A stretch of 64,000 nt of DNA, taken from positions 786,411 to 850,410 of the forward strand of contig NZ_FOQT01000001.1 in the NCBI RefSeq assembly GCF_900113805.1, written 5' to 3'. The translations under genes and the position numbers were made by a program. The notes beneath the pieces were generated by a model that was not told where the DNA came from, searched no databases, and worked only from the letters and a program-made list of their open reading frames with translations. Positions 13,646 through 26,454 of the stretch are shown one piece after another (position 1 is the stretch's first letter; every line of letters starts with the position of its first letter). The DNA comes from Halpernia frigidisoli. Its GTDB lineage: Bacteria > Bacteroidota > Bacteroidia > Flavobacteriales > Weeksellaceae.

Positions 13646-14224
13646 ATGCGAAAATTAATCTTATCAGTTTTAGTTTTAGGTGCACTTTCTGCGTGTAAAA
13701 AAGAAAAAAAAATTGTAGAAAATAATGACGAAATAAAAGATTCAACAATGGCAGTTACGACGCCTCAAGTTTCTACAGCATCGATAAATTTAAAAGAATT
13801 CTCACCTGCACAGGTTTCGGATTATTTAAAAAATAAAGAAAACGACACCTTATATGTGACTAACTTTTTCGCAACCTGGTGCGGTCCGTGTATGGCGGAA
13901 ATTCCACATTTTAAAGAAAAAATCGCTGAATTAAAAGGACAACCGGTAAAATTCACCTTCGTAGATATTGATGAAAAATCTGATTGGGACGGCGCTGTAA
14001 AAACATTCGCTGCAAAAAATGATCTTCAGGATCATATCATTTTAGTAGATAATAAAAAACTGGATCCTGCATTTTTTAAATCGACTTTCGAAAAATGGGA
14101 TGGACAGGCAATTCCTTACACAATTATGAAAAAGGGAAAAAGAACGGAAGAAACTTTGGGAAATATGAGCGCGGAAATGCTTGATCAAAAGTTGGCTTCT
14201 TTCATTTCTGAAAAAAAAAATTAA
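13646..14224 (+). CDS. TlpA-like thioredoxin lipoprotein
   Basis: The 192-residue protein has a lipoprotein signal peptide ending LSAC (Cys17), a charged linker, and a thioredoxin domain with the active site ATWCGPCMAEIPHF (Cys79, Cys82) and the cis-Pro strand AIPYTIM. It is anchored in the periplasm or outer membrane and probably reduces or exchanges disulfides of exported proteins. It is followed by a terminator and so is monocistronic. Partner protein unknown. Confidence 0.92.
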   Translation: MRKLILSVLVLGALSACKKEKKIVENNDEIKDSTMAVTTPQVSTASINLKEFSPAQVSDYLKNKENDTLYVTNFFATWCGPCMAEIPHFKEKIAELKGQPVKFTFVDIDEKSDWDGAVKTFAAKNDLQDHIILVDNKKLDPAFFKSTFEKWDGQAIPYTIMKKGKRTEETLGNMSAEMLDQKLASFISEKKN

Positions 14225-14286
14225 TAAAAATTAAGTAATCAGACTTAACTGTCGATGGCGGAATTTTCCCCAAATACACATTATGA

Positions 14287-14328
14287 TCAAAAAGCCGTTA
14301 ATTTAATTTTAAGCGGCTTTTTATTTTT
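14287..14328 (+). terminator. Terminator after thioredoxin-like gene
   Basis: Stem aaaaagccg / cggcttttt (14289-14297 with 14314-14322) with an AT-rich loop and a following T-run. Confidence 0.75.
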
Positions 14329-14357
14329 TTAATTTTATCTATATATATTTTTCTTTA

Positions 14358-15341
14358 ATGAAATTTAGTTTTAAAAATCTTGTATTTTTTTTAATAATAA
14401 TTGGTTTTGCGGCAATTATTATTAACTTATTTACAGGTTTTATACCTCTGCAATTTTCAGATTTTTTCTTAACAAATTCCTCAAATTTTGACATTGCACA
14501 ACTGCGTGTAAACCGTGTTTTAATAATGCTTTTGGCAGGTATTTCAATTCCAACTTCGGGATTTTTATTACAAGAATATTTTCAAAATCCACTGGCTGGA
14601 CCATCCGTTTTAGGAATATCTTCGGTCGCAAGTTTAAGTGTGGCTTTTTATATTTTTTTCTCGCAAAATTTAGTTCTCCCAGAATTTCTTCAAAACAGTT
14701 TTTTAAGCATCACTGCAATTGCTGGAAGTTTTGTTTTAATGCTTGTTTTACTGCTTTTCTCTGAAAAATTTCAGGATAAAAGTTTCATTATTATTTTTGG
14801 TTTTCTAATTTCTGCTTTGGCTGGCGCAATTGTTTCTATTTTACAATTTTATGCCGAAAATCAAAGTTTAAAAAATTATGTTCTTTGGAGTTTTGGCGCG
14901 AATAATCAGGTTAGCTTAGGTCAAATTACCGTTCTTTCAGTTTTAATTTTAGTAGGTTTATTTCTTAGTTTTAAATGTTTAAAACCTTTGATAGGAAATA
15001 GTTTGGGAACATCTTACGCGCAGAGTTTTGGCGTAAATTTAAAACACTTGAAATATTTAATAATTCTCGCTTCTTCCCTACTTTCTGCTTCAGTCACAGC
15101 ATTTCTTGGTCCGATTTTATTTATCGGAATTGTTGTTCCGCATTTTGCGAGATTACTATACAATCCTTCAAAACTTTGGCACCAGTGGATTTTAAATATG
15201 ATTTTAGGAATCTGTATTATGGAAGTTTTTTCTGTGGTTTCAGAACTCTCAAAATTACCTTTAAATATCATCACTTCACTGTTTGGGATTCCTGTGATTT
15301 TATTAATGTTGATTGGGAAGAATAAATTTACAAATGCTTAA
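14358..15341 (+). CDS. FecCD/BtuC-type ABC transporter permease
   Basis: The 327-residue membrane protein has about nine or ten hydrophobic segments and the FecCD hallmarks: RVNRVLIMLLAGISIPTSG, FQNPLAGPSVLGISSVASLS, and GPILFIGIVVPHFARLL facing the ATPase. It would import iron-siderophore, heme or cobalamin across the inner membrane. The ATPase gene follows after 6 bp. No periplasmic binding protein or TonB-dependent receptor is adjacent, so the substrate cannot be read from context. Confidence 0.93.
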   Translation: MKFSFKNLVFFLIIIGFAAIIINLFTGFIPLQFSDFFLTNSSNFDIAQLRVNRVLIMLLAGISIPTSGFLLQEYFQNPLAGPSVLGISSVASLSVAFYIFFSQNLVLPEFLQNSFLSITAIAGSFVLMLVLLLFSEKFQDKSFIIIFGFLISALAGAIVSILQFYAENQSLKNYVLWSFGANNQVSLGQITVLSVLILVGLFLSFKCLKPLIGNSLGTSYAQSFGVNLKHLKYLIILASSLLSASVTAFLGPILFIGIVVPHFARLLYNPSKLWHQWILNMILGICIMEVFSVVSELSKLPLNIITSLFGIPVILLMLIGKNKFTNA

Positions 15342-15347
15342 TTTAAG

Positions 15348-16265
15348 ATGAATATAGATTTAAAAAACATCACTTTTGGTTTTTCTAAACCTTTAATTTC
15401 TGAAGGGAATATGTCTTTAGAAACTGGTGATGTTTGTTTAATTATTGGCGATAACGGCGTCGGGAAAACTACTTTAATTAAATCCATTTTAGGTCAAAAT
15501 AAACTAATGTCGGGTGGTGTTTTTTTGGATGAAAATAATCTCAAAAATTTAGCTTCAAAAGAAATTGCCCAGAAAATCTCTATTGTTTTTTCAAAATCTC
15601 AAATCCCAAATCATTTCACAGTTTTAGATTTAATTTCTTTTGGTAAATACATTCATTATCCTTACTATTTTAAATTAAATAAAACTGATTTACAGGAAGT
15701 TGATGAAATTATCGAAAGTCTTGGTTTAAAAGAATTTGAAAATTTTCAATTGCAAAATCTGTCAGATGGTAATTTGCAAAAAGCCTTTATCGGTCGTGCT
15801 TTATCGCAAAATACGCCGATCATCATATTAGATGAACCAACGACGCATTTAGATGAAAAAAATAAGTTGATGATCCTCAATTTGCTTCGGCATATTGCCA
15901 AAACTCAAAATAAAATAATATTATTTTCTTCACACGACTGGCGATTGGCAAAGGAATTTAGTGATAAAATCTGTCTTTTAAAAAATGAACAATTATTTTC
16001 AGGAATTGCTGAAGATGTCCTTTTAAAACAGCCAGAATTAACGACGCCAAAACTATACAATTTACATTCTGAATTTTTGCCGCCACAGATTTTTGCGCCT
16101 GAATTAGAAAAGGAATTACTCTATTCTTTTCTACAAAAAAACCATCCAAAAAATCTGAAAAACTACAAATTTACCTGGAGCGATAATTTTTGGGAGATTT
16201 CACACAACGATAATCAACAAAAAGCAACTACCTTTAAGGAAATCACAAACATGCTCTCTAAGTAG
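15348..16265 (+). CDS. ABC transporter ATP-binding protein (iron/B12 importer type)
   Basis: The 305-residue ATPase has Walker A GDNGVGKTT (34-42), signature LSDGNLQKA (138-146; the canonical LSGGQ is changed to LSDGN), Walker B IIILDEP (158-164) and H-loop His196. It is cotranscribed with the FecCD permease just upstream. About 70 extra C-terminal residues after the nucleotide-binding domain are of unknown role. It energises the importer on the cytoplasmic side. Confidence 0.92.
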   Translation: MNIDLKNITFGFSKPLISEGNMSLETGDVCLIIGDNGVGKTTLIKSILGQNKLMSGGVFLDENNLKNLASKEIAQKISIVFSKSQIPNHFTVLDLISFGKYIHYPYYFKLNKTDLQEVDEIIESLGLKEFENFQLQNLSDGNLQKAFIGRALSQNTPIIILDEPTTHLDEKNKLMILNLLRHIAKTQNKIILFSSHDWRLAKEFSDKICLLKNEQLFSGIAEDVLLKQPELTTPKLYNLHSEFLPPQIFAPELEKELLYSFLQKNHPKNLKNYKFTWSDNFWEISHNDNQQKATTFKEITNMLSK

Positions 16266-16297
16266 CATTAAATCTACAAAATACTCGATTTTAAAAT

Positions 16298-16317
16298 ATA
16301 CTATGCGTGCATAGTAT
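16298..16317. promoter_or_regulatory. Predicted MarR operator, distal site
   Basis: A 20-bp near-perfect palindrome (atactatgcgtgcatagtat, one mismatched centre pair) lying 87 bp upstream of the promoter-proximal copy and 133 bp before the chosen marR start. Same core as 4173-4184 and 16385-16396. Confidence 0.6.
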
Positions 16318-16384
16318 TATGCATTTCATATTAATTAAAATATTGATATTCAGTTATTTGACTAAAACTCATTCTGTAAAGTAC

Positions 16385-16396
16385 TATGCATGCATA
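16385..16396. promoter_or_regulatory. Predicted MarR operator, promoter-proximal site
   Basis: Perfect palindrome TATGCATGCATA ending 8 bp before the -7 box at 16405-16412, so a bound protein would cover the promoter spacer. Autoregulation of marR and control of the fad operon are inferred. Confidence 0.7.
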
Positions 16397-16404
16397 ATAT
16401 TTTG

Positions 16405-16412
16405 TATATTTG
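16405..16412 (+). promoter_or_regulatory. -7 promoter box of marR-fad operon
   Basis: TATATTTG matches TAnnTTTG exactly. Transcription would begin around 16417, which lies after a possible TTG start at 16410 and decides for the ATG at 16431. Confidence 0.6.
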
Positions 16413-16430
16413 AGTAAGAGATATGTTAAT

Positions 16431-16883
16431 ATGAGTTCCAAATATAATGACAAAGTAGATAATGTGGATTTGATTTTAAAATCAACGTGGTTGGCTGTTT
16501 CAAAAATGTACAGTGATATGGCGCAAGATCACGATGCAACCGCAGTTCAAGCACTCACTTTATTAAAAATTGATCCAAAAGAAGGAACAAGAAGCACGAA
16601 TCTTGGACCGAAAATGGCGATTGAACCAACTTCTTTGACCCGCATAATCAAACTTTTGGAAGATAATGGCTATATATATAAGGAAAAAACAACTTTAGAT
16701 AAACGCGAAGTCATTATTAAATTGACGGAGAAAGGTATCGAGAGCAGAAATCTTTCGAAAGAAGTGGTCGTTAATTTTAACACAAAAGTGGCGCAGAAAA
16801 TTTCTTCAGAAAAATTAGATATTTTTAAAGAAGTCATGCTTGATATCTTAAGAATTGCAAACGAAATAAATAACAAAAAATAA
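16431..16883 (+). CDS. MarR family transcriptional regulator, likely of beta-oxidation
   Basis: The 150-residue protein has the winged-helix MarR fold: KSTWLAVSKMYSDMAQ dimerisation helix, a helix-turn-helix around EGTRSTNLGPKMAIEPTSLTRIIKLLEDNGY, and the wing with TLDKREVIIKLTEKG (the conserved D-x-R-x-x-x-x-x-L-T pattern). The ATG at 16431 is preferred over the in-frame TTG at 16410 because the -7 box overlaps that TTG. It is 5 bp before the fadN-like gene. Ligands of such local MarR proteins are often acyl-CoAs or fatty acids; this is inferred from context. Confidence 0.92.
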   Translation: MSSKYNDKVDNVDLILKSTWLAVSKMYSDMAQDHDATAVQALTLLKIDPKEGTRSTNLGPKMAIEPTSLTRIIKLLEDNGYIYKEKTTLDKREVIIKLTEKGIESRNLSKEVVVNFNTKVAQKISSEKLDIFKEVMLDILRIANEINNKK

Positions 16884-16888
16884 CAAAT

Positions 16889-19294
16889 ATGAACAGACAC
16901 ATCAAACATGTAACTGTTTTGGGTTCAGGAATTATGGGTTCCGGCATTGCTGCACACTTCGCCAACATCGGCGTTCAGGTGCTTTTGCTGGATATTGTCC
17001 CTTTTGAACTGACGGAAGCAGAAACTAAAAAAGGTCTTACGAAAGAACATAAAGCGGTACGAAACAGAATTGCGACGGAGAATTTTGTAAAATTACAGAA
17101 ATCCAGTCCAGCACTACTCTATTCGCCAAAATTTGCAGATAGAATTACAGTTGGAAATTTTGATGATGATTTAAAGAAAATCAAAAATACCGACTGGATC
17201 ATTGAAGTGGTTATTGAAAGACTGGACATCAAGAAATCGGTTTATGAAAAAATTGAAGCCGTTCGTAAAGATGGGACTTTAATTTCTTCCAACACTTCCG
17301 GAATTCCTATTAATCAATTGGTAGAAGAACGTAGTGATGATTTTAAAAAATATTTTGCCGGAACACATTTCTTTAATCCGGTTAGATATTTACCACTTTT
17401 AGAAATTATTCCAACAAACGACACCGATCCGGAAATCATTGATTTTTACATGAATTACGGTGCTAAATTTTTAGGAAAAACTACGGTTTTAGCTAAGGAT
17501 ACACCGGCATTTATCGCAAACAGAATTGGAGTTTTCTCTATGATGAATTTGCTTCACAGCGTAAAAGATCTCGGCTTAAATGTTTCTGACGTTGATAAAC
17601 TGACCGGACCAATTATCGGTCGGCCAAAATCTGCGACTTTTAGAACCGCTGATGTCGTTGGTTTAGACACTTTGGTTCACGTTGCGAAAGGGGTTGAAGG
17701 CAGCGGAACGGAACAGGAAATTTTCCAGAAAGGTTTTGCGATGCCTTCTTACATTGATTTTATGATGGAAAAGAAAATGCTAGGTTCTAAAACCGACGGC
17801 GGATTCTACAAAAAAATCAAAAATGCAGAAGGAAAATCTGAAATTCAGGGTCTAAATCTTGAAACTTTAGAATACGAACTTCAGGGCAAAAACTCTTTCC
17901 CGACTTTAGAATTAACCAAAAACATCGACAAACCTTTAGACCGTTTTAAAGTTTTGGTCGGTGGAAAAGACAAGGCTGGTGAATTGTACAGAAAATCTTT
18001 AGGCGCTTTGTTCGCTTACGTTTCTCATAAAGTTCCGGAAATTTCTGATGATATTTATAAAATTGATGACGCACTTCGCGCCGGTTTTGGTTGGGAAAAC
18101 GGTCCGTTCGAAATCTGGGATGCCGTTGGCGTAGAAAAAGGTATTGAACTTGCAAAAGCAGAAGGATACGAAGTTTCTGATTGGGTTAAAAATTTAGCCT
18201 CAAAAAATCAGACTTTTTACAAAGTAAATGAAGAAGGTCAAAGCACTTTTGTTAATAAAGATTCCGCCGAATATTCTAAAATTCCGGGACAGGATTCTTT
18301 TATTATTTTAGATAATATTAGAAAAAACAAAACTCTTTGGAGCAATTCCGAAGCACAGATTCAGGATTTAGGCGACGGAATTATCAATTTTGAAATTAAA
18401 TCTAAAATGAATTCCCTTGGCGGTGGCGTTTTAGACGGTTTAAACCGCGCGATCGACTTGGCAGAAAAGGATTACGACGGTTTGGTGATTGCCAATCAGG
18501 GCGCTAATTTTTCTGTCGGCGCAAACCTTGCGATGATCATGATGATGGCGGTTGACCAGGATTGGGACGATCTAAATATGGCCATCAATTATTTCCAAAA
18601 ATCAATGATGCGTGTGCGATATTCTTCAATTCCGGTTGTCGTTGCCCCTTTCGGGATGACTTTAGGCGGCGGTTGCGAGATGACACTGCACGCCGACAGA
18701 GTTGTTGCTGCGGCAGAAACTTATATTGGTTTGGTTGAAGTTGGTGTCGGCGTAATTCCCGGCGGTGGCGGAACGAAAGAAATGACTTTAAGAACTTCCC
18801 GCGATTTCCATAATGATGATGTTAAAAATAACCGTTTGCGCGATGCTTTTATGAATATCGCGATGGGAAAAGTCGCCACTTCTGCTTATGAAGCCTATGA
18901 TATGGGGATTTTAGAGCAAGGAAAAGATATTGTAGTTGTTAATAAACAATCTCAAATCATGACCGCAAAAATGATGGCGAAAAGTTTGTCCGAGCACGGT
19001 TACACGCAACCCATCGAGCAAAAAGTAAAAGTGGTTGGCAAAGATGCTTTGGGAATGTTCTACGTTGGAACAGACCAAATGCTCGCTGGAAATTACATTT
19101 CTGAACACGATAAAAAAATCGCAGATAAACTCGCTTACGTAATGGTTGGTGGTAATTTATCTGAACCAACAGTCGTTACCGAGCAGTATTTATTGGATCT
19201 TGAAAGAGAAACGTTCCTTCAACTTTGTGGTGAAAGAAAGACTTTGGAGAGAATTCAGTTCATGTTGCAGAAAGGGAAACCTTTACGTAATTAG
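16889..19294 (+). CDS. fadN: 3-hydroxyacyl-CoA dehydrogenase / enoyl-CoA hydratase (FadN-like)
   Basis: The 801-residue bifunctional enzyme starts with the NAD-binding HVTVLGSGIMGSGIA (GSGIMG from residue 12), followed by the dehydrogenase body with HFFNPVRYLPLLEII, and ends with a crotonase domain holding GANFSVGANL and GGGCEMTLHADRVV / GVGVIPGGGG. The dehydrogenase-first order is that of Bacillus FadN, not of enterobacterial FadB. It carries out the hydration and oxidation steps of beta-oxidation. Its TAG stop lies inside the left repeat of the first four-helix-bundle cassette. Codon use is less AT-biased than the neighbours, suggesting high expression. Confidence 0.95.
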   Translation: MNRHIKHVTVLGSGIMGSGIAAHFANIGVQVLLLDIVPFELTEAETKKGLTKEHKAVRNRIATENFVKLQKSSPALLYSPKFADRITVGNFDDDLKKIKNTDWIIEVVIERLDIKKSVYEKIEAVRKDGTLISSNTSGIPINQLVEERSDDFKKYFAGTHFFNPVRYLPLLEIIPTNDTDPEIIDFYMNYGAKFLGKTTVLAKDTPAFIANRIGVFSMMNLLHSVKDLGLNVSDVDKLTGPIIGRPKSATFRTADVVGLDTLVHVAKGVEGSGTEQEIFQKGFAMPSYIDFMMEKKMLGSKTDGGFYKKIKNAEGKSEIQGLNLETLEYELQGKNSFPTLELTKNIDKPLDRFKVLVGGKDKAGELYRKSLGALFAYVSHKVPEISDDIYKIDDALRAGFGWENGPFEIWDAVGVEKGIELAKAEGYEVSDWVKNLASKNQTFYKVNEEGQSTFVNKDSAEYSKIPGQDSFIILDNIRKNKTLWSNSEAQIQDLGDGIINFEIKSKMNSLGGGVLDGLNRAIDLAEKDYDGLVIANQGANFSVGANLAMIMMMAVDQDWDDLNMAINYFQKSMMRVRYSSIPVVVAPFGMTLGGGCEMTLHADRVVAAAETYIGLVEVGVGVIPGGGGTKEMTLRTSRDFHNDDVKNNRLRDAFMNIAMGKVATSAYEAYDMGILEQGKDIVVVNKQSQIMTAKMMAKSLSEHGYTQPIEQKVKVVGKDALGMFYVGTDQMLAGNYISEHDKKIADKLAYVMVGGNLSEPTVVTEQYLLDLERETFLQLCGERKTLERIQFMLQKGKPLRN

Positions 19295-19297
19295 AAG

Positions 19298-19310
19298 TTA
19301 GATATTAGAA
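19298..19310 (+). repeat. Left inverted repeat of IVP cassette 1
   Basis: TTAGATATTAGAA; exact reverse complement of 19708-19720. It sits in a run of TTAGAA/TTTAGAA units (19290-19322) between the fadN stop and the cassette start codon. Confidence 0.75.
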
Positions 19311-19322
19311 TTTAGAATTTAG

Positions 19323-19685
19323 ATGAAAACGCACAGATTACGAGAGTTAATTATTTGGAAGAAATCGATGGTTTTAGTTAAGGATGTTTATCTATTAACC
19401 GAAACTATTCCTTCAACTGAAAAATTTGGACTGATTTCTCAAATTCGAAGATGTGCTGTATCAATACCTTCTAATATCGCTGAAGGAGCTGGAAGAAATA
19501 ATCCTAAAGAATTTTATCAATTTTTAGGTATTGCAAATGGTTCAAGTTATGAATTAGAAACGCAATTAATATTATTAGTTGATTTAAATTTTCAAAGCGA
19601 GGAAGAAATTCAGCCTTTACTAAATATTTTAACAGAAATTCAAAAGATGATTTATAAATTCAAAACAAATTTAATGAACGGTTAG
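19323..19685 (+). CDS. Four-helix-bundle protein, S23/IVP family (cassette 1)
   Basis: The 120-residue protein has the signature of the 23S rRNA intervening-sequence protein family (four helix bundle, TIGR02436): LIIWKKSMVLVKDVY, FGLISQIRRCAVSIPSNIAEGAGR and EFYQFLGIANGSSYELETQLILL. These proteins form pentameric basic barrels; the relative Avd binds RNA in diversity-generating retroelements. Here the gene lies between two beta-oxidation genes, not in rRNA, and is flanked by a perfect 13-bp inverted repeat. It shares the direction of the operon. Function in this setting is unknown. Confidence 0.93.
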   Translation: MKTHRLRELIIWKKSMVLVKDVYLLTETIPSTEKFGLISQIRRCAVSIPSNIAEGAGRNNPKEFYQFLGIANGSSYELETQLILLVDLNFQSEEEIQPLLNILTEIQKMIYKFKTNLMNG

Positions 19686-19707
19686 ATTCTAATTTCTAAC
19701 ATCTCAT

Positions 19708-19720
19708 TTCTAATATCTAA
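19708..19720 (+). repeat. Right inverted repeat of IVP cassette 1
   Basis: TTCTAATATCTAA; exact complement of 19298-19310. It follows the cassette stop codon within a run of TTCTAA units (19684-19724), 10 bp before the thiolase ATG. Confidence 0.75.
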
Positions 19721-19729
19721 ATTTAAAAA

Positions 19730-20911
19730 ATGAAACAAGCATATATAATTTCCGGTTACAGAACTGCTGTCGGTAAAGCACCAAAAGGATCATTAAGATT
19801 TACGCGTCCCGACGTGATGGCAGCAACCGTTATTGAAAAATTAATGGCAGATTGTCCAAAACTGGATAAAAATAGAATCGACGATCTTATAGTTGGAAAC
19901 GCAATGCCGGAAGCCGAACAAGGCTTAAATGTAGCGCGATTAATTTCATTAATGGGATTAAACACGGACAAAGTTCCGGGCGTAACAGTGAACAGATATT
20001 GCGCTTCCGGAAGTGAGGCGATTGCGATTGCCTCAGCGAAAATACAGGCTGGAATGGCAGATTGTATTATTGCTGGTGGAACAGAATCAATGAGTTACAT
20101 TCCAATGGGTGGTTACAAACCAGTCCCGGAATCTAATATCGCAAAAACAAATCCAGATTATTATTGGGGAATGGGTTATACCGCGGAAGAAGTCGCAAAA
20201 CAATACAATATTACCCGCGAACAACAGGATGAATTCGCTTTTCACTCGCATGAAAAAGCCTTAAAAGCCAATGCAGAAGGCAGATTTAAAGACCAGATCG
20301 TTTCCATTCCGGTAGAATATAATTTCCTTAACGAACAGCAAAAATCAGAAACTAAGAAATTCGATTTTTCTGTAGATGAAGGTCCACGAGCAGGAACTTC
20401 AATGGAAGCCTTAGCAAAATTAAAACCCGTTTTTGCCAATGGCGGAAGTGTAACGGCTGGAAATTCCTCACAAATGAGTGATGGCGCTGCTTTCGTAATT
20501 GTGATGAGCGAAGAAATGGTAAAAGAATTAGGTCTGGAACCACAAGCAAGATTGGTTGCTTATGCCGCAGCCGGTTTAGAACCAAGAATTATGGGAATGG
20601 GTCCATTGTACGCAATTCCAAAAGCCTTGAAACAAGCAGGTTTAGATTTAAAAGATATTGATTTAATTGAACTTAACGAAGCATTCGCTTCACAATCAGT
20701 TGCGGTAATGAACGAATTAAATTTAAACAAAGAAATCGTCAACGTCAACGGTGGCGCAATCGCACTTGGACATCCGCTTGGTTGTACAGGAACAAAATTA
20801 ACGATTCAACTGTTAGATGAAATGAAAAAACGTGGCAATATGAAATATGGAATGGTCACAATGTGCGTCGGAACTGGACAAGGAGCGGCGAGTATTTTTG
20901 AACTGCTTTAA
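19730..20911 (+). CDS. fadA: Acetyl-CoA C-acyltransferase (thiolase)
   Basis: The 393-residue thiolase has nucleophile Cys91 in NRYCASGSEAIA, His348 in GGAIALGHPLGCTG and Cys379 in MCVGTGQGAAS. It splits 3-ketoacyl-CoA to acetyl-CoA and a shortened acyl-CoA, the last step of beta-oxidation. It lies between fadN-like and acyl-CoA dehydrogenase genes in the same order as Bacillus fadNAE, so the degradative role is more likely than acetoacetyl-CoA synthesis. Flanked by four-helix-bundle cassettes on both sides. Confidence 0.96.
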   Translation: MKQAYIISGYRTAVGKAPKGSLRFTRPDVMAATVIEKLMADCPKLDKNRIDDLIVGNAMPEAEQGLNVARLISLMGLNTDKVPGVTVNRYCASGSEAIAIASAKIQAGMADCIIAGGTESMSYIPMGGYKPVPESNIAKTNPDYYWGMGYTAEEVAKQYNITREQQDEFAFHSHEKALKANAEGRFKDQIVSIPVEYNFLNEQQKSETKKFDFSVDEGPRAGTSMEALAKLKPVFANGGSVTAGNSSQMSDGAAFVIVMSEEMVKELGLEPQARLVAYAAAGLEPRIMGMGPLYAIPKALKQAGLDLKDIDLIELNEAFASQSVAVMNELNLNKEIVNVNGGAIALGHPLGCTGTKLTIQLLDEMKKRGNMKYGMVTMCVGTGQGAASIFELL

Positions 20912-20918
20912 AAATTTT

Positions 20919-20931
20919 AGATTTTAAATTA
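20919..20931 (+). repeat. Left inverted repeat of IVP cassette 2
   Basis: AGATTTTAAATTA; exact reverse complement of 21313-21325. It begins 8 bp after the thiolase stop. Confidence 0.65.
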
Positions 20932-20946
20932 TAAATTTTAGATGAA

Positions 20947-21303
20947 ATGAGTTTCAAAGAAGATAATTTAATTCAAATAAAGACATTTGAGTTTGCATTG
21001 AGAATCATCAAATTCTATTCAATATGCAAATCTCAAAATGAATATATTTTATCTAAACAAATTCTTCGTTCAGGAACTTCAATCGGGGCAAATGTTGAAG
21101 AAGCAATTGCCGCTCAATCAAAAAAGGATTTTATTTCCAAACTTTCAATTGCAAATAAGGAAGCACGGGAAACAAAATATTGGCTAAAACTTTACAAATC
21201 TTCGGATTTGGTAAAAGTGGAAATTGATTCCTATTTAATTGAAATCGAAAGCATTATCAATATTTTAACTAAAATCATTAAAACGTCATCTGAAAATTTA
21301 TAA
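20947..21303 (+). CDS. Four-helix-bundle protein, S23/IVP family (cassette 2)
   Basis: The 118-residue protein belongs to the second common subtype of the same family: IKTFEFALRIIKFYSIC, SKQILRSGTSIGANVEEAIAAQSKKDFISKLSIANKEARETKYWLKLL-like region near residues 35-85. It is clearly different in sequence from cassette 1, so the two arose by separate insertions, not tandem duplication. It lies between thiolase and acyl-CoA dehydrogenase genes, flanked by its own 13-bp inverted repeat. An ATG at 20942 is out of frame and stops at once; the ATG at 20947 is the start. Confidence 0.92.
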   Translation: MSFKEDNLIQIKTFEFALRIIKFYSICKSQNEYILSKQILRSGTSIGANVEEAIAAQSKKDFISKLSIANKEARETKYWLKLYKSSDLVKVEIDSYLIEIESIINILTKIIKTSSENL

Positions 21304-21312
21304 CAGCAAATC

Positions 21313-21325
21313 TAATTTAAAATCT
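21313..21325 (+). repeat. Right inverted repeat of IVP cassette 2
   Basis: TAATTTAAAATCT; exact complement of 20919-20931, starting 9 bp after the cassette stop codon. Confidence 0.65.
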
Positions 21326-21353
21326 ATAATCCAAAATTTAAAATTAATATAAT

Positions 21354-23123
21354 ATGTCAACAATAAAAAAAGGCGGCGAATTTCTAATCAAACCAACACC
21401 CGCAGCAGAAATTTTCACTTTAGAAGATCTTTCTGAAGAACAAAAAATGATACGCGATTCCGCGAAAGAATTTATCGACCGCGAAGTTATGCCACATCAC
21501 GACCGTTTTGAGCATAAGGATTACGCTTTAACGGAAGAAACGATGCGCAAATTGGGCGAAATGGGACTTTTAGGAGTTACAGTTCCAGAGCAATACGGCG
21601 GTTTGGGAATGGGTTTCGTGACCACAATGCTTGCTTGCGATTACGTTTCCGGTGGAAATGGATCTTTGGCAACGGCTTTCGGCGCACATACAGGAATCGG
21701 AACTTTACCGATTTTACTTTATGGAACTGAAGATCAAAAAAATAAATATTTGCCAGATTTAGCAACCGGAACTAAATTCGGCGCTTATTGTTTGACAGAA
21801 CCAGACGCAGGTTCTGACGCAAATTCTGGGAAAACAAAAGCCGTTTTATCTGAAGACGGAAAAACTTATACGATAAACGGACAAAAAATGTGGATCTCAA
21901 ACGCAGGATTTGCAGAGATTTTTATTGTTTTTGCAAGAATTGAAGATGATAAAAATATTACCGCTTTTATCGTAGAAAAAGAAGGTACTGAAGGTTTGAC
22001 TTTTGGCGAGGAAGAACATAAACTGGGAATTCGTTCCTCTTCTACCCGACAGGTTTTTTTCAATGACATGAAAGTGCCGGCAGAAAATCTTTTGGGGCAA
22101 AGAAATAACGGTTTCAAGATCGCAATTAATTCTCTAAATGTTGGTCGGATTAAATTGGCTGCAGCAAATATTGACGGACAAAGAAGAATTTTCGGTCATT
22201 CTGTGAAATATGCGAGTGATAGAAAACAATTCGGCGTTTCTATCTCCACTTTTGGAGCGATCAGAAAAAAATTAGCAGAAATGGCAACCGGGATTTTTGT
22301 AAGTGAAGCTGCAACTTACCGCGCTGGAAAAGACGTTCAGGATAAAATTGACGAATTAATCGCGGGCGGAATGGGTCATCAGGAAGCAGAATTAAAAGGC
22401 GTAGAAGAATTCGCAGTTGAATGTTCTATTTTGAAAGTTTTCGTTTCAGATCTAACGCAACATTCTGCAGATGAAGGAATCCAAATTTACGGTGGAATGG
22501 GCTTTTCTGAAGATATGCCAATGGAAGCCGCTTGGAGAGATTCCAGAATTGGAAGAATTTACGAAGGAACAAATGAAATCAACCGTCTTTTAGCCGTTGG
22601 AATGTTGATCAAAAAAGCAATGAAAGGCCAATTGGATTTAATGGGACCTGCAATGGCAGTTGGCAAAGAATTAATGGGAATTCCATCTTTTGAAACACCG
22701 GATTATTCTGAATTTATGTCAGAAGAAAAAGCATTATTAGAAAACCTGAAAAAAGTTTTTATGATGGTTTCCGGTTCTGCCTTGCAAAAATATATGGGAG
22801 ACATTGATAAACAACAACATTTATTATTAAACGCTTCCGAGATTTTAAACCAAATTTACATGGCAGAATCTACAGTTTTAAGAGCAGAAAAAAGTTTTGA
22901 TGCTGATTCTGTACAGGCTGCAATGGCAAAATTAAATCTTTACAAAGCCACAGAAAAAATTATCGCGGCTGCAAAAGAAGGTATTATTTCCTTTGCTGAC
23001 GGTGATGAGCAACGCATGATGCTTTCTGGTTTACGAAGATTTACAAAATACACCAACCAACCAAATGTGATTGCATTAACTGAAAAAATCGCAGCGCATT
23101 TTGTTGAGAAAGGAAGTTATTAA
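21354..23123 (+). CDS. fadE: Acyl-CoA dehydrogenase (FadE-like, long form)
   Basis: The 589-residue flavoenzyme has the acyl-CoA dehydrogenase signatures CLTEPDAGSDANSGKTKA and QIYGGMGFSEDMPMEAAWRDSRI, with YEGTNEI carrying the probable catalytic base Glu404. About 180 extra C-terminal residues make it resemble the VLCAD-like branch used for long chains. It oxidises acyl-CoA to enoyl-CoA and gives electrons to ETF, whose genes (etfBA) share the putative operator. It is the last gene of the operon and is followed by a strong terminator. Confidence 0.94.
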   Translation: MSTIKKGGEFLIKPTPAAEIFTLEDLSEEQKMIRDSAKEFIDREVMPHHDRFEHKDYALTEETMRKLGEMGLLGVTVPEQYGGLGMGFVTTMLACDYVSGGNGSLATAFGAHTGIGTLPILLYGTEDQKNKYLPDLATGTKFGAYCLTEPDAGSDANSGKTKAVLSEDGKTYTINGQKMWISNAGFAEIFIVFARIEDDKNITAFIVEKEGTEGLTFGEEEHKLGIRSSSTRQVFFNDMKVPAENLLGQRNNGFKIAINSLNVGRIKLAAANIDGQRRIFGHSVKYASDRKQFGVSISTFGAIRKKLAEMATGIFVSEAATYRAGKDVQDKIDELIAGGMGHQEAELKGVEEFAVECSILKVFVSDLTQHSADEGIQIYGGMGFSEDMPMEAAWRDSRIGRIYEGTNEINRLLAVGMLIKKAMKGQLDLMGPAMAVGKELMGIPSFETPDYSEFMSEEKALLENLKKVFMMVSGSALQKYMGDIDKQQHLLLNASEILNQIYMAESTVLRAEKSFDADSVQAAMAKLNLYKATEKIIAAAKEGIISFADGDEQRMMLSGLRRFTKYTNQPNVIALTEKIAAHFVEKGSY

Positions 23124-23145
23124 AAAAATACTTTTCTTTAAAATT

Positions 23146-23177
23146 TGAAACGCCTCAGGAAACTGAGGCGTTTTTTA
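23146..23177 (+). terminator. Terminator of the fad operon
   Basis: GC-rich perfect stem aaacgcctca / tgaggcgttt (23148-23157 with 23164-23173) followed by TTTTTT. Confidence 0.9.
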
Positions 23178-23201
23178 TTGTTAAAATATTTATGAATTGT
23201 A

Positions 23202-23846
23202 TTACTTCTTTTTAAATACATTAAAAAAACTCAAAAATGATTTAGCGCCTTCTCTTTGTAAATCTTTAGATGACACAGTTTGATTTTTTATTGAGGGACT
23301 TTAATCATCCAGATTTAAGATAAAACTACCATCTGCATTTTTTTTAGGCACAAAAGATAGCATACAAGTACATCCAATTCCCTTACAAGTACAATTTCTG
23401 TGAGGCAATGTATATTCAGTTAAAAATTTACTGACTTCATAAATTTTTGATCTATCTGCAAGACAAACACCGCAACTATTATCTGAAACATTTATTACAA
23501 CTTCATAATCATTTATAGTTGACGTCTTTGATTGAAAATCTAGGATTCGAGCATTTATAGATAGTTCTTTCATTTTAGAAACTCTTTCTTTTTTTTCATG
23601 CCTAAAGTCGAAAACTGCCATTGACCAATAATTGTATGCCTGCTTTTGAAAATCCCGAGAAAATATTAGAATTGATTTATTATAAAAATGCCAAATAAAA
23701 TCTTTTAAACTAATTAAATTTCCTTCAGCTATTTTTGCTGCTAAATACTCAATATCAATGAATTTTTTTGAATGACCTAATGATTCGAAATCTTTGAAAG
23801 CCTCATTTTTAACAGTTTGAAATTTCTTTAAAACTTTATCTTCCAT
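23202..23846 (-). pseudogene. Unknown Cys-rich protein gene with in-frame TAA before its C-terminus
   Basis: From the ATG at 23844-23846 the frame gives 181 residues, then a TAA at 23301-23303, then 32 further sense codons to a TAA at 23202-23204. The continuation (SPSIKNQTVSSKDLQREGAK and on to FKKK) looks coding. The protein is helical and basic in its first 110 residues; the C-terminal part has a Cys cluster (CGVCLAD then PHRNCTCKGIGCTCM) that could bind a metal. I do not recognise the family. Either the stop is a recent nonsense change that trims the tail, or the short form is the real one; the short form keeps the Cys cluster and could still work. Confidence 0.6.
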
Positions 23847-24032
23847 AATAAAAATTTGAGATAATAAATCTACAGAAACTTTCCATTTCGAACAAAGTCG
23901 CGGATGAATTTAAAACTTTGGGATGACGTTAACTAATAGTATATATTTTCACTTCACCTTTATTTAACCTTCCAACAATTTCCCCTTGCATTCCACTCCA
24001 ATTTTCGTTATTTTTCCACGAACTAAAATAAT

Positions 24033-25109
24033 ATGAAAATTAAATCTATTTTACACTGGACGGTTGTGCTGCCGCTGATTGCTGCACTATTTTATCTGCT
24101 CGGTTTCTTAAACAATACTTTGGTCAGTAATATTATAGGAGCAGGTCTACTTTTTGGAAGTGTTTTAGCAGCAGTTCATCATGCGGAAGTGATTGCGCAT
24201 AAAGTGGGCGAACCTTACGGCACCATTATTCTGGCGATCTGTATAACGGTTTTAGAAGTTGGATTGATCGTTTCCTTTATGCTTTCCGGCAGCGAGGGCG
24301 CAGAAACATACGCGCGGGACACGATTTTTGCTGCAGTGATGATCATTCTAAATGGTATTTTGGGCATCTGCATTTTTGTAGGAAGCCGAAAATATAAAGA
24401 GCAATTTTTTATCACTAAATCTGCAACCACTTATCTGGTGAGTCTGGTTTCAATTTTAGTTTTGACTTTAATTTTACCAAATTACACTTCCACTTCGATC
24501 GGTCCACATTATTCCGGGTCACAATTGATTTTCGTTTCTCTTGCCTGCTTAACTATTTACGGCAGTTTTTTACTTTTTCAAACCGTTCGACACCGCAATT
24601 ATTTTATCTCAGAAATTCCAGGCGAAGTCGTGCATGAAGTGGATCCGCCAACTACTACAAAAATGATCATAAGCTCAATTCTTTTGATTATTTGTCTTGC
24701 CGTTGTAATCTTTATGGCAAAAGGTCTTTCTCCAGTTATAGAAAATTTTGTATCACAAATCGGTGCGCCAAGAGCTTTAGTAGGCGTTATAATAGCAGGC
24801 GTTGTTTTATTACCGGAAGGTTTGGCGGCAATTCGCGCAGCTAGAAATAACCAGATACAGGATTCTATAAATCTAAGTCTGGGTTCTGCGCTTGCAAGTG
24901 TGGGCTTAACTGTGCCTGCGATTTCTGTAGTTTGCATTTATAATGATATCCCATTTATTTTGGGTCTGGATATGAAATCAATTATTCTTTTAGCACTTTC
25001 AGTTTTCATCGTGATGATGTCATTAAGTCGGGGAAAAACAAATCATTTATACGGAACAGTACTTTTGGTAAATCTTGCGGCGTACATTTTTACGGTGATC
25101 GTACCTTAA
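24033..25109 (+). CDS. Calcium/proton antiporter (ChaA/CaCA family)
   Basis: The 358-residue membrane protein has about eleven transmembrane segments in two homologous halves, each with the acidic CaCA motif: HAEVIAHKVGEPYGTIILAICITVLEVG in the first half and GVVLLPEGLAAIRAARNNQIQDSINLSLGSALASVG in the second. It exports Ca2+ (or Na+/K+) in exchange for protons or sodium. It is a single gene. The exact ion cannot be told from sequence. Confidence 0.92.
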   Translation: MKIKSILHWTVVLPLIAALFYLLGFLNNTLVSNIIGAGLLFGSVLAAVHHAEVIAHKVGEPYGTIILAICITVLEVGLIVSFMLSGSEGAETYARDTIFAAVMIILNGILGICIFVGSRKYKEQFFITKSATTYLVSLVSILVLTLILPNYTSTSIGPHYSGSQLIFVSLACLTIYGSFLLFQTVRHRNYFISEIPGEVVHEVDPPTTTKMIISSILLIICLAVVIFMAKGLSPVIENFVSQIGAPRALVGVIIAGVVLLPEGLAAIRAARNNQIQDSINLSLGSALASVGLTVPAISVVCIYNDIPFILGLDMKSIILLALSVFIVMMSLSRGKTNHLYGTVLLVNLAAYIFTVIVP

Positions 25110-25197
25110 TAATTAAAATATAAAATCGAGTTAAGTTTGAAATGAAGGTGAAATCTTTCAAACCGGAAACTTTACTTTTAACAATAGAAAAGTCATT

Positions 25198-26454
25198 ATG
25201 AATAACAATAATCCCAAAATCCACATTATTGGCGCCGGAATCAGCGGTTTAATCGCCGCGCAAACCTTAGAAAAAAACGGCTTCTCTTCCACTATTTTAG
25301 AATTGACAAATTCTGTGGGCGGTCGTGTGAAAACGGATATTATAGAAGGTTATCAATTGGATCACGGTTTTCAGGTTTTGCTTACTTCTTATCCCGCAGC
25401 AAAGCGTTTTTTAGATTTTAAGGCTTTAGAATTACAGGAATTTTTGCCTGGCGCGACTATTTTTAATAGTGGAAAATCTCAAACAATTGGCGATCCATTG
25501 CGTGATCTTTCTTTGCTTTTTCCGACGGTTTTTTCAAGTATTATTCCTTTGATGGATAAAATTAAAATCCTGAAACTGAACTTAATTTTAAAAAAGAAAA
25601 GAATTGCAGACATTTTTGCCGAAAAAGAAATTTCAACTTTAGATTATTTAAAGAATTTTGGCTTTTCTGAACAAACCATTTCTCAATTTTTTAAACCATT
25701 TTTCAGCGGAATTTTTCTGGAAACTAAACTGGAAACTTCCAGTAGAATGTTTGAGTTTGTTTATAAAATGTTTGGTAGCGGAAACGCGGCTCTTCCAAAA
25801 GCGGGAATTCAAGCCATTCCAGATCAACTTGCACAAAATTTAAAAACTACAAAAATCCTTTTTAACACCAAAGTTTCATCTGTGGAAGACGGCGAAATTA
25901 CTTTAGAAAATGGTGAAGTTTTAGAAAGCGATTTTACAATAATTGCTACAGATGCAAAGCATTTAATTTCTGATTTAAAGCAAGAAAATGTAAAATGGAA
26001 ATCGTGTTTTACGCTTTATTTTGAAACTGAAAAACGCGTGCTTGAAAAACCGATCATCGGACTTTTACCCAAAGAAAATTCATTAATAAATAATATTTTT
26101 TACAACACAAGTTTGGAAACCAGCAAAAATGGTGGGAAGGAATTGCTTTGTATAACAGTCGTTGATAATCAAAATCTTAAAGGAAATGAACTTATTGAAA
26201 AAGTAAAAATTGAATTAAAAAACTATTTCAACATCGACGTTTTAAGATTAATTAAAATGTACGAAATCCCAAAAGCACTACCCGATTTGAAAAATATTAA
26301 ATACAGTTTAGATTTAGCAGAAACTCAATATTCAAAACAAATTTATCTTGCAGGCGACATTTTGGTAAACGGTTCTCTTAATGCGGCAATGCTTTCCGGT
26401 GAAAGTGCTACTCTGGCGGTGATTGAGAATATAAAGAGTAATCTTAAAGCTTAA
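25198..26454 (+). CDS. FAD-dependent amine oxidase / phytoene-desaturase-like oxidoreductase
   Basis: The 418-residue protein starts with the dinucleotide motif IHIIGAGISGLIAAQTLEKNG (GAGISG at 12-17) followed by the second FAD contact NSVGGRVKTD, the hallmark of the NAD(P)/FAD amine-oxidase superfamily, and ends with LAGDILVNGSLNAAMLSGESA, the FAD-closing strand. Substrate unknown; it is not next to carotenoid or heme genes. Cytosolic, single gene. Confidence 0.88.
   Translation: MNNNNPKIHIIGAGISGLIAAQTLEKNGFSSTILELTNSVGGRVKTDIIEGYQLDHGFQVLLTSYPAAKRFLDFKALELQEFLPGATIFNSGKSQTIGDPLRDLSLLFPTVFSSIIPLMDKIKILKLNLILKKKRIADIFAEKEISTLDYLKNFGFSEQTISQFFKPFFSGIFLETKLETSSRMFEFVYKMFGSGNAALPKAGIQAIPDQLAQNLKTTKILFNTKVSSVEDGEITLENGEVLESDFTIIATDAKHLISDLKQENVKWKSCFTLYFETEKRVLEKPIIGLLPKENSLINNIFYNTSLETSKNGGKELLCITVVDNQNLKGNELIEKVKIELKNYFNIDVLRLIKMYEIPKALPDLKNIKYSLDLAETQYSKQIYLAGDILVNGSLNAAMLSGESATLAVIENIKSNLKA

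Follow-up and report, generated by a model that had tools for sequence, protein, structure and literature searches.

What is a small gene of the IVP/S23 family, which is familiar mainly from rRNA insertions, doing between two genes of a fad operon, and what are the repeats that enclose it? The question is raised by a stretch of 64,000 nucleotides from Halpernia frigidisoli (contig NZ_FOQT01000001.1, positions 786,411 to 850,410; hereafter the window), in which the gap between a fadN-like and a fadA-like gene holds such a gene. We show that an array of about five degenerate heptanucleotides (heptads) lies on either side of this gene, the two being in inverted orientation. The parts of this first cassette and its neighbours are, in window coordinates:

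16889..19294, plus strand: fadN-like 3-hydroxyacyl-CoA dehydrogenase/enoyl-CoA hydratase gene; the left array opens with its stop codon TAG as first heptad core.
19292..19323, plus strand: left heptad array of cassette 1, TAGAAGT TAGATAT TAGAATT TAGAATT TAGA, with five cores.
19323..19685, plus strand: gene for IVP/S23 four-helix-bundle protein 1 (120 amino acids), assigned by PF05635, TIGR02436 and an AlphaFold2 model.
19688..19719, minus strand: right heptad array of cassette 1, read on that strand as TAGATAT TAGAAAT GAGATGT TAGAAAT TAGA, with five cores.
19730..20911, plus strand: fadA-like acetyl-CoA C-acyltransferase (thiolase) gene, assigned by open reading frame and family profiles.

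The left array begins at the stop codon of fadN and ends with the A of the ATG of the IVP gene. A sequence-only reading of the locus had reported a complete S23/IVP gene in the gap, and the open reading frame (ORF) at 19323-19685 indeed matched both PF05635 (E 4.3e-40, 136.7 bits versus a cut-off of 33.8) and TIGR02436 (E 1.3e-37, 128.3 bits versus a cut-off of 24). Its placement of the fadN stop codon inside the left run was seen at 19292-19294, and its exact 13-bp inverted repeat was found as described, with TTAGATATTAGAA at 19298-19310 and the perfect complement at 19708-19720; in an inverted-repeat search, the arms were 29 nucleotides long (19295-19323 and 19695-19723) and 83% complementary. 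Moreover, the likeness that it drew between this ORF-plus-complementary-arms layout within a protein operon and the intervening sequences of ribosomal RNA (rRNA) held, the same build being present in a true insertion in 23S rRNA of Azospirillum (locus L155). A scan of positions 14000-26000 against Rfam gave no match at the gathering thresholds; the cassettes of the window lie between protein genes and not in rRNA. What that reading overlooked is the 7-nucleotide periodicity of the arms, their five units and the long residence of the cassette at its site.

The periodicity was analysed, together with strand polarity, in the 82 of 116 cassettes with an inverted-repeat score of at least 13, the 34 below that score being left out; loci L001/L004, which are the window again, and L091/L098 were excluded from the lag, polarity, word-similarity and unit-count analyses. 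Identity at lag 7 was 0.614 in left and 0.626 in right arms compared to 0.357 and 0.364 in shuffled arms, and it was close to that level at lag 14 (0.599 and 0.601); all other lags between 1 and 16 were at or below background. Lag 7 was dominant in 69 of the 82 left arms. In 40 additional IVPs, which were hand-chosen rather than random and came from hit-list rows without a locus, lag 7 gave mean best runs of 9.7 and 10.3 and lag 8 of 5.1 and 6.6, and the remaining lags from 4 to 12 gave 3.0 to 3.9. Similarly, the 851 kb made up of the window and orthologous loci contained 38 strong arrays of period 7, 15 of which lie in IVP gaps, and four of the other periods from 5 to 11 taken together. The repeated word varies among cassettes (TTAGA.., GACTTGA, GTAAAAT, AAAGAGA, AAGAACC, GCGAGCG) on one common build, and the two arms of a cassette share their word, with a mean similarity of 0.79 in 71 cassettes.

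The number of units per array was counted for 156 IVPs not selected for inverted repeats, i.e. 55 from fad operons, 61 from top loci and the 40 picked ones. Left arrays were found in 102 of these and had three (20), four (18), five (46), six (11), seven (5) or eight (2) cores, and right arrays were found in 110 and had three (16), four (28), five (48), six (8), seven (3), eight (6) or nine (1). Five was the mode in every subset, both on the left (fad 21/47, top 16/35, picked 9/20) and on the right (fad 18/43, top 19/42, picked 11/25). By comparison, shuffled flanks had arrays in 21 of 312 cases, 16 of them with three units, and the arrays of ordinary genes, also mostly of three units, were present in 7/151 left and 9/151 right flanks in IVP-free stretches and in 10/151 and 9/151, respectively, in IVP-rich stretches. 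These control counts strengthen the five-unit result. Under a second scoring, applied to 116 of these cassettes, five was again the commonest number, with 31 of the 80 arrays on the left and 38 of the 84 on the right, and 19 of 232 shuffled flanks reached the threshold. Period-6 arrays were rarer in the 156 IVPs (22 left, 31 right) and peaked at three units, and period-8 arrays were found in 28 left flanks, with a peak at three, and in 36 right flanks, 12 of which had five units and 11 three. In the clade of the window, five units were counted by eye in 10 of 12 arms and four in the other two.

Inverted arms also accompany IVP genes in other bacteria. S23/IVP proteins are widespread: of 118 genomes drawn from the phylum, 90 had a match. 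An inverted repeat scoring at least 14 flanked 35 of 65 top IVP ORFs but only 1 of 166 other mechanically called ORFs at the same loci, and 23 of the 40 picked IVPs as compared to 3 of 143 other ORFs; Fisher tests were run on both comparisons. On plasmids, from which 10 of 27 matched records were sampled, eight of them cyanobacterial, inverted heptads were found on both sides of the IVP gene in five of the eight cyanobacterial cases (L146, L147, L151, L152, L153), with words such as AGTAGGG in Nostoc edaphicum, CAGGGAA in Nostoc C052 and AAAAGGG in Geminocystis. At L149 the heptads were clear on the right side and weak on the left, and at L148 they were present on the right side only and well distant from the gene; the IVP of Gemmatirosa (L154) had no heptads by the finder and octads in direct orientation by eye.

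The Azospirillum IVP gene lies within 23S rRNA, in a helix loop of model RF02541. By eye, its left arm reads AGAGGAC GGATGAC AGAGGAC GGAGGAC AGA and its right arm AGAAGAC GGATGAC AGAAGAC AGAGGAC GGA, each with five cores; the automated scan, in which the start codon was set too far upstream, missed the left array (inverted-repeat z -0.7). In Coxiella, an rRNA insertion has three tandem GACAGAT heptamers and a GACAGAA before the S23p start (PMC4990558). This report was the only one in the literature searched, which included few subscription papers, in which heptamers adjoin an S23 ORF, and within the same limits no general tie of heptamer repeats to the IVP family was found.

The cassettes have a direction. 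On the coding strand, the left arm had more G than C in 75 of 82 cassettes, the reverse was the case in three, and four were ties. In Bacteroidota, both neighbours were on the same strand as the IVP gene in 92 of 105 cases and the gene was antisense to both in five, as compared to 136 and 42, respectively, of 285 ordinary ORFs of 100-260 amino acids. Finally, the left array ended a median of 6 nucleotides before the start codon, and the right array started a median of 4 nucleotides after the stop codon. Because in the Bacteroidota samples the cassettes lie in sense orientation in co-directional gene strings, their left strand is richer in G and the end of the left array adjoins the start codon, use of the site in the transcript, i.e. 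on RNA, is indicated.

The AlphaFold2 model of the 120-residue protein (pLDDT 92.7) is a predicted four-helix bundle with 2gsc (TM 0.87-0.92) and 2rld among its nearest folds. It also matched Avd of diversity-generating retroelements (DGR; 4dwl, TM 0.79-0.80, E 0.005-0.016) as well as chains of the DGR ribonucleoprotein structures 8ub7 and 8ube (E 0.017 and 0.074, probability 1.00), which are presumably Avd. Both 2gsc and 2rld have five chains, and the former is presumably the S23p of Xanthomonas campestris. This S23p is reported to be a toroidal homopentamer, and S23/IVP proteins are described as having no known function (PMC4990558).

Five heptads for five subunits would be the simplest reading of these counts. 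We infer, with a joint confidence that stops just short of even, that the IVP ring recognises the arrays and that it does so at the level of RNA, the binding itself being what we propose. Each of the five subunits of a homopentameric IVP ring would take one 7-nucleotide unit. On the nascent operon mRNA, the ring would bind the array on the left and, once bound, would control its own translation. Binding would compete with loose pairing between the left and right arrays, and unbound, paired arrays could be cut by ribonuclease III (RNase III), as in rRNA intervening sequences. A path of five times seven nucleotides around a ring of this kind seems plausible on steric grounds. The trp RNA-binding attenuation protein (TRAP) is comparable in the way it would work only: it is a ring protein with tandem AG-containing motifs at fixed spacing and an adjoining start codon. 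The TRAP fold is unrelated to that of IVP, its ring has 11 subunits and its motifs are more closely spaced. Tandem motifs with a fixed spacing and a number matching the ring were likewise found here (period 7, mode five), with the ring size taken from relatives.

Several observations weigh against the proposal of a pentameric reader. The pentamer of the window protein is itself drawn from relatives. Of the 156 flanks on each side, 54 on the left and 46 on the right had no period-7 array by the finder, a number of units other than five is seen in more than half of the arrays, the left arm of the sister species (L098) has four, and a minority of arms are at period 8. In addition, the array counts include orthologues and are hence not independent, and by another score 17 of 143 other ORFs of the IVP loci reached the array threshold on the left and 28 on the right (the 40 picked IVPs reached it in 24 left and 25 right flanks). 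In Pseudanabaena (L150), the arrays are more than 100 nucleotides long and direct rather than inverted (inverted-repeat z -2.2). Three of the eight cyanobacterial plasmid IVPs are antisense to both neighbours; thus, sense orientation holds in the Bacteroidota samples and was rejected as a general rule. If the ring bound single-stranded RNA of the left arm only, the right array would need another reason. Finally, the link between word and protein is weak. IVP pairs with more than 0.7 protein identity nearly always have a common word, but every one of these pairs also has a neighbour gene in common, so that they are probably orthologues. In a Mantel test on the 93 cassettes with both array and protein, the correlation without shared-neighbour pairs was weak (rho 0.17), although none of 1000 permutations reached it, whether or not GC was controlled, and it was gone when pairs of similar GC were compared (rho 0.05, P 0.13). 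These data therefore do not prove that word and protein have co-evolved.

We next turn to the fad sites, on which the first alternative bears. Their occupation was tallied in 81 loci (80 plus the window), with ends unaligned in L039, L053 and L072 at site 1, the fadN/fadA gap, and in L017, L039 and L063 at a second fad site (site 2). Thus, 78 loci remained for each. Site 1 was occupied by an IVP gene in 26, a gene of a Y1-transposase-type cluster in 15, another ORF in one and neither in 36; site 2 was occupied by an IVP gene in 29, other ORFs in six and neither in 43. The Y1-type gene encodes 153-171 amino acids at L012:3929-4390 and the 14 other loci, PF01797 (Y1_Tnp) was matched by the single member tested, and many of these loci carry AGCTCCGTAGGAGCGACCTGTTAATA-like palindromes. 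Alternatives at site 2 include ORFs of 181-185 amino acids (L014:5682-6224, L027, L036) and of 758-793 amino acids (L034:5729-8002, L054), and the three examined (L014, L036, L034) had no Pfam match. Heptad hairpins or arrays without an IVP gene were seen in the fad gaps of L063, L067 and L076 at site 1 and of L047, L053 and L079 at site 2, and the IVP gene at site 2 of L009 is apparently shortened internally; it is as if these cassettes had lost their gene.

The first alternative takes the arms for the ends of a small mobile element, read as DNA by IVP itself or by a transposase or reverse transcriptase borrowed from elsewhere; the sense bias would then reflect selection against harmful insertions. 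Inverted heptad arrays do resemble terminal inverted repeats, periodicity is equally strong in both arms, the Y1-transposase-type gene with its palindromic flanks occupies the same fadN/fadA gap elsewhere (15 of 78 loci, in one cluster), distant IVP clades occupy this gap, and the Azospirillum insertion sits in a helix loop of 23S rRNA. The tree of IVPs, however, clusters by site, with 9 changes at site 1 and 5 at site 2 as compared to 22.6 and 24.4 after shuffling, and an actively hopping element was rejected as the main account on this ground; rows away from the fad sites had 16 changes versus 49.8. Of the best IVP loci of other genomes, 16 of 58 share a flanking gene with the fad sites, and 16 additional fad rows, when treated as a separate group, were not clustered (14 changes versus 15.5) because they are scattered among both site clades and stand beside rows without a site label. 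Among 2563 pairs without a shared neighbour, from a sample of 93 cassettes, none exceeded 0.66 identity, i.e. this sample held no recent near-identical copies at unrelated sites. Moreover, the Pfam search and the structure model revealed no catalytic domain in IVP, and a target-site duplication could not be demonstrated: empty gaps of less than 60 nucleotides, seen in 19 of 78 loci for site 1 and 20 of 78 for site 2, are too short and too diverged to reveal an insertion boundary. We consider a mobile element unlikely. The tree, which has few columns and many weak forks, shows several separate occupations, and given this and the clustering by site the cassettes seem to have been in place for a long time, with losses and replacements. 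These observations support a cassette that stays in the fad operon over the long term and is occasionally lost or replaced.

The sequence-only reading had proposed that the two arms could form a stem and that RNase III could cut it, separating the fad messages. As a full alternative, this model has the fadN, IVP and fadA messages separated and the protein incidental. The arms do pair in the predicted RNA fold, rRNA intervening sequences are excised by RNase III (PMC4990558), the Azospirillum insertion has the same arm build, and the sense orientation of the cassettes within gene strings is in line with it. The fold of the whole stretch, however, had a z-score of only -1.96, with 3 of 100 shuffles equally good. 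Pairing was examined in 74 arm pairs that were long and varied enough, against a null that keeps the heptad word, with trimmed arms, a variant allowing G-U pairs and a power simulation. Complementarity beyond the shared word was significant (P<0.05) in only 10 of the 74 pairs, or six with G-U (median P 0.44 and 0.515, respectively), whereas simulated stems with 10% change were detected in 71 of 74 cases (72 with G-U); over all pairs there was a weak excess of pairing (Wilcoxon P 0.001, and 0.010 with G-U). A first version of the test similarly gave P<0.05 in 6 of 38 pairs, with little beyond the shared word. For cassette 1, complementarity was as expected given the word (P 0.47, or 0.415 with G-U; 0.99 in the first version), and the other cassette of the window gave P 0.865 (0.285 with G-U). 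The variable spacer positions, which in a conserved stem should be complementary as well, are mostly not.

Position by position, the five-unit arms of the window clade (five left and five right; the four-unit arms, L098 left and L013 right, were omitted) had an invariant A and G in the core TAGA, and the two middle spacer positions differed in 0.2 to 0.6 of comparisons. With spacers mostly unpaired and cores constrained, the arms therefore look like two copies of a recognised word and not like halves of a helix. Because pairing is mostly not kept beyond the shared word, the stem and its cleavage are only partly supported; moreover, a pure stem does not explain the exact 7-nucleotide period or the mode at five, and we regard this account, too, as improbable.

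Least likely by a clear measure is that the arrays are neutral slippage products arising easily beside IVP genes, with arm similarity caused by template switching: unit numbers do range from 3 to 9, heptamer copy number varies among Coxiella strains (PMC4990558) and IVP-rich genomes hold heptad arrays away from an intact IVP ORF, but slippage should favour short arrays of various periods instead of period 7 (38 versus 4 in 851 kb) with a mode at five, and the cores are constrained while the spacers drift. Period-7 arrays were also absent from 381 kb of IVP-free genomes as compared to seven in 400 kb of IVP-rich genomes, sampled at round-number positions. This comparison is weak because four of the seven lie within the single stretch L178 and none adjoins an intact IVP ORF, and its nominal P of 0.016 is too low because of that clustering and because the IVP-free genomes are mostly from other families.

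In L178:5137-9303, four heptad arrays with two words lie within 4.2 kb, and no IVP ORF was found in the stretch. Strong heptad arrays away from the fad sites, with TTGATAA and other words, were also seen at L010:8851-9239, L014:9763-10025 and L084:7881-9863. The IVP cassettes at L211, L224 and L103 have octad arms, AGTTACAG and others, instead of heptads. On two cyanobacterial plasmids, an IVP gene lies between cas6 and cas4, with inverted heptad arrays at L146:1501-1869 and direct ones at L150:1504-1863; in Anabaena sp. 90 the cas genes are annotated as type I-D.

The window holds a second cassette directly downstream of the thiolase gene:

20912..20942, plus strand: left heptad array of cassette 2, with the word AATTTTA and near variants.
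20947..21303, plus strand: gene for IVP/S23 four-helix-bundle protein 2 (118 amino acids; PF05635, E 4.8e-23), of a distant IVP clade in the tree.
21315..21345, minus strand: right heptad array of cassette 2, the inverted arm.
21354..23123, plus strand: acyl-CoA dehydrogenase-like gene downstream of cassette 2, named from its sequence without a family search.

In the 3.02-Mb genome there are seven PF05635 genes, and inverted repeats scoring at least 14 surround all seven.

The closest known counterparts are the rRNA intervening sequences with an S23/IVP ORF of Coxiella, Leptospira and Azospirillum, in which the IVP ORF likewise lies between complementary arms, in Azospirillum with five heptads per arm as in cassette 1; by contrast, the cassette of the window lies between protein genes, outside rRNA. 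REP/RAYT cassettes, which have a Y1 transposase, similarly combine a small gene with palindromic flanks and in other species occupy the same fadN/fadA gap, but protein and type of flank are different. Avd has the fold of the IVP model (4dwl), and its homology to PF05635 has been noted (PMC10053308); the window protein, however, scored only 23 bits with the equivalog model of DGR Avd, for which the cut-off is 80.

Orphan heptamer repeats are intergenic 7-nucleotide direct repeats like the arrays of the window. The STRR repeats of cyanobacteria are short heptamer repeats. In Beggiatoaceae, TAACTGA heptamers are intergenic direct repeats that mostly lie close before start codons (PMC4679880), and the GGGAATC heptamers of Xanthomonas form 70 and 75 inverted pairs in two genomes, and the GGGGA(C/T)T heptamers of Nostoc few (PMC4692102). 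The available text of PMC4692102 had no matches to S23, helix bundle or intervening, and that of PMC4679880 none to S23, four helix, intervening or Avd, i.e. by these terms neither ties the repeats to S23/IVP genes.

Heptamer repeats have thus been described in bacteria several times without a known binder. Five heptads per arm, together with relatives that form five-membered rings, join the function of IVP and the identity of the heptamer binder into one question. It is possible, at somewhat less than even confidence, that the IVP/S23 family forms a widespread class of pentamers that read five-heptad nucleic-acid arrays word by word, each lineage having its own seven-letter word in inverted arrays on both sides of its own gene, and that rRNA intervening sequences and the STRR, TAACTGA and GGGAATC repeats are targets or relics of this one family. 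If so, the binding word of each IVP would be predictable from its own flanks.

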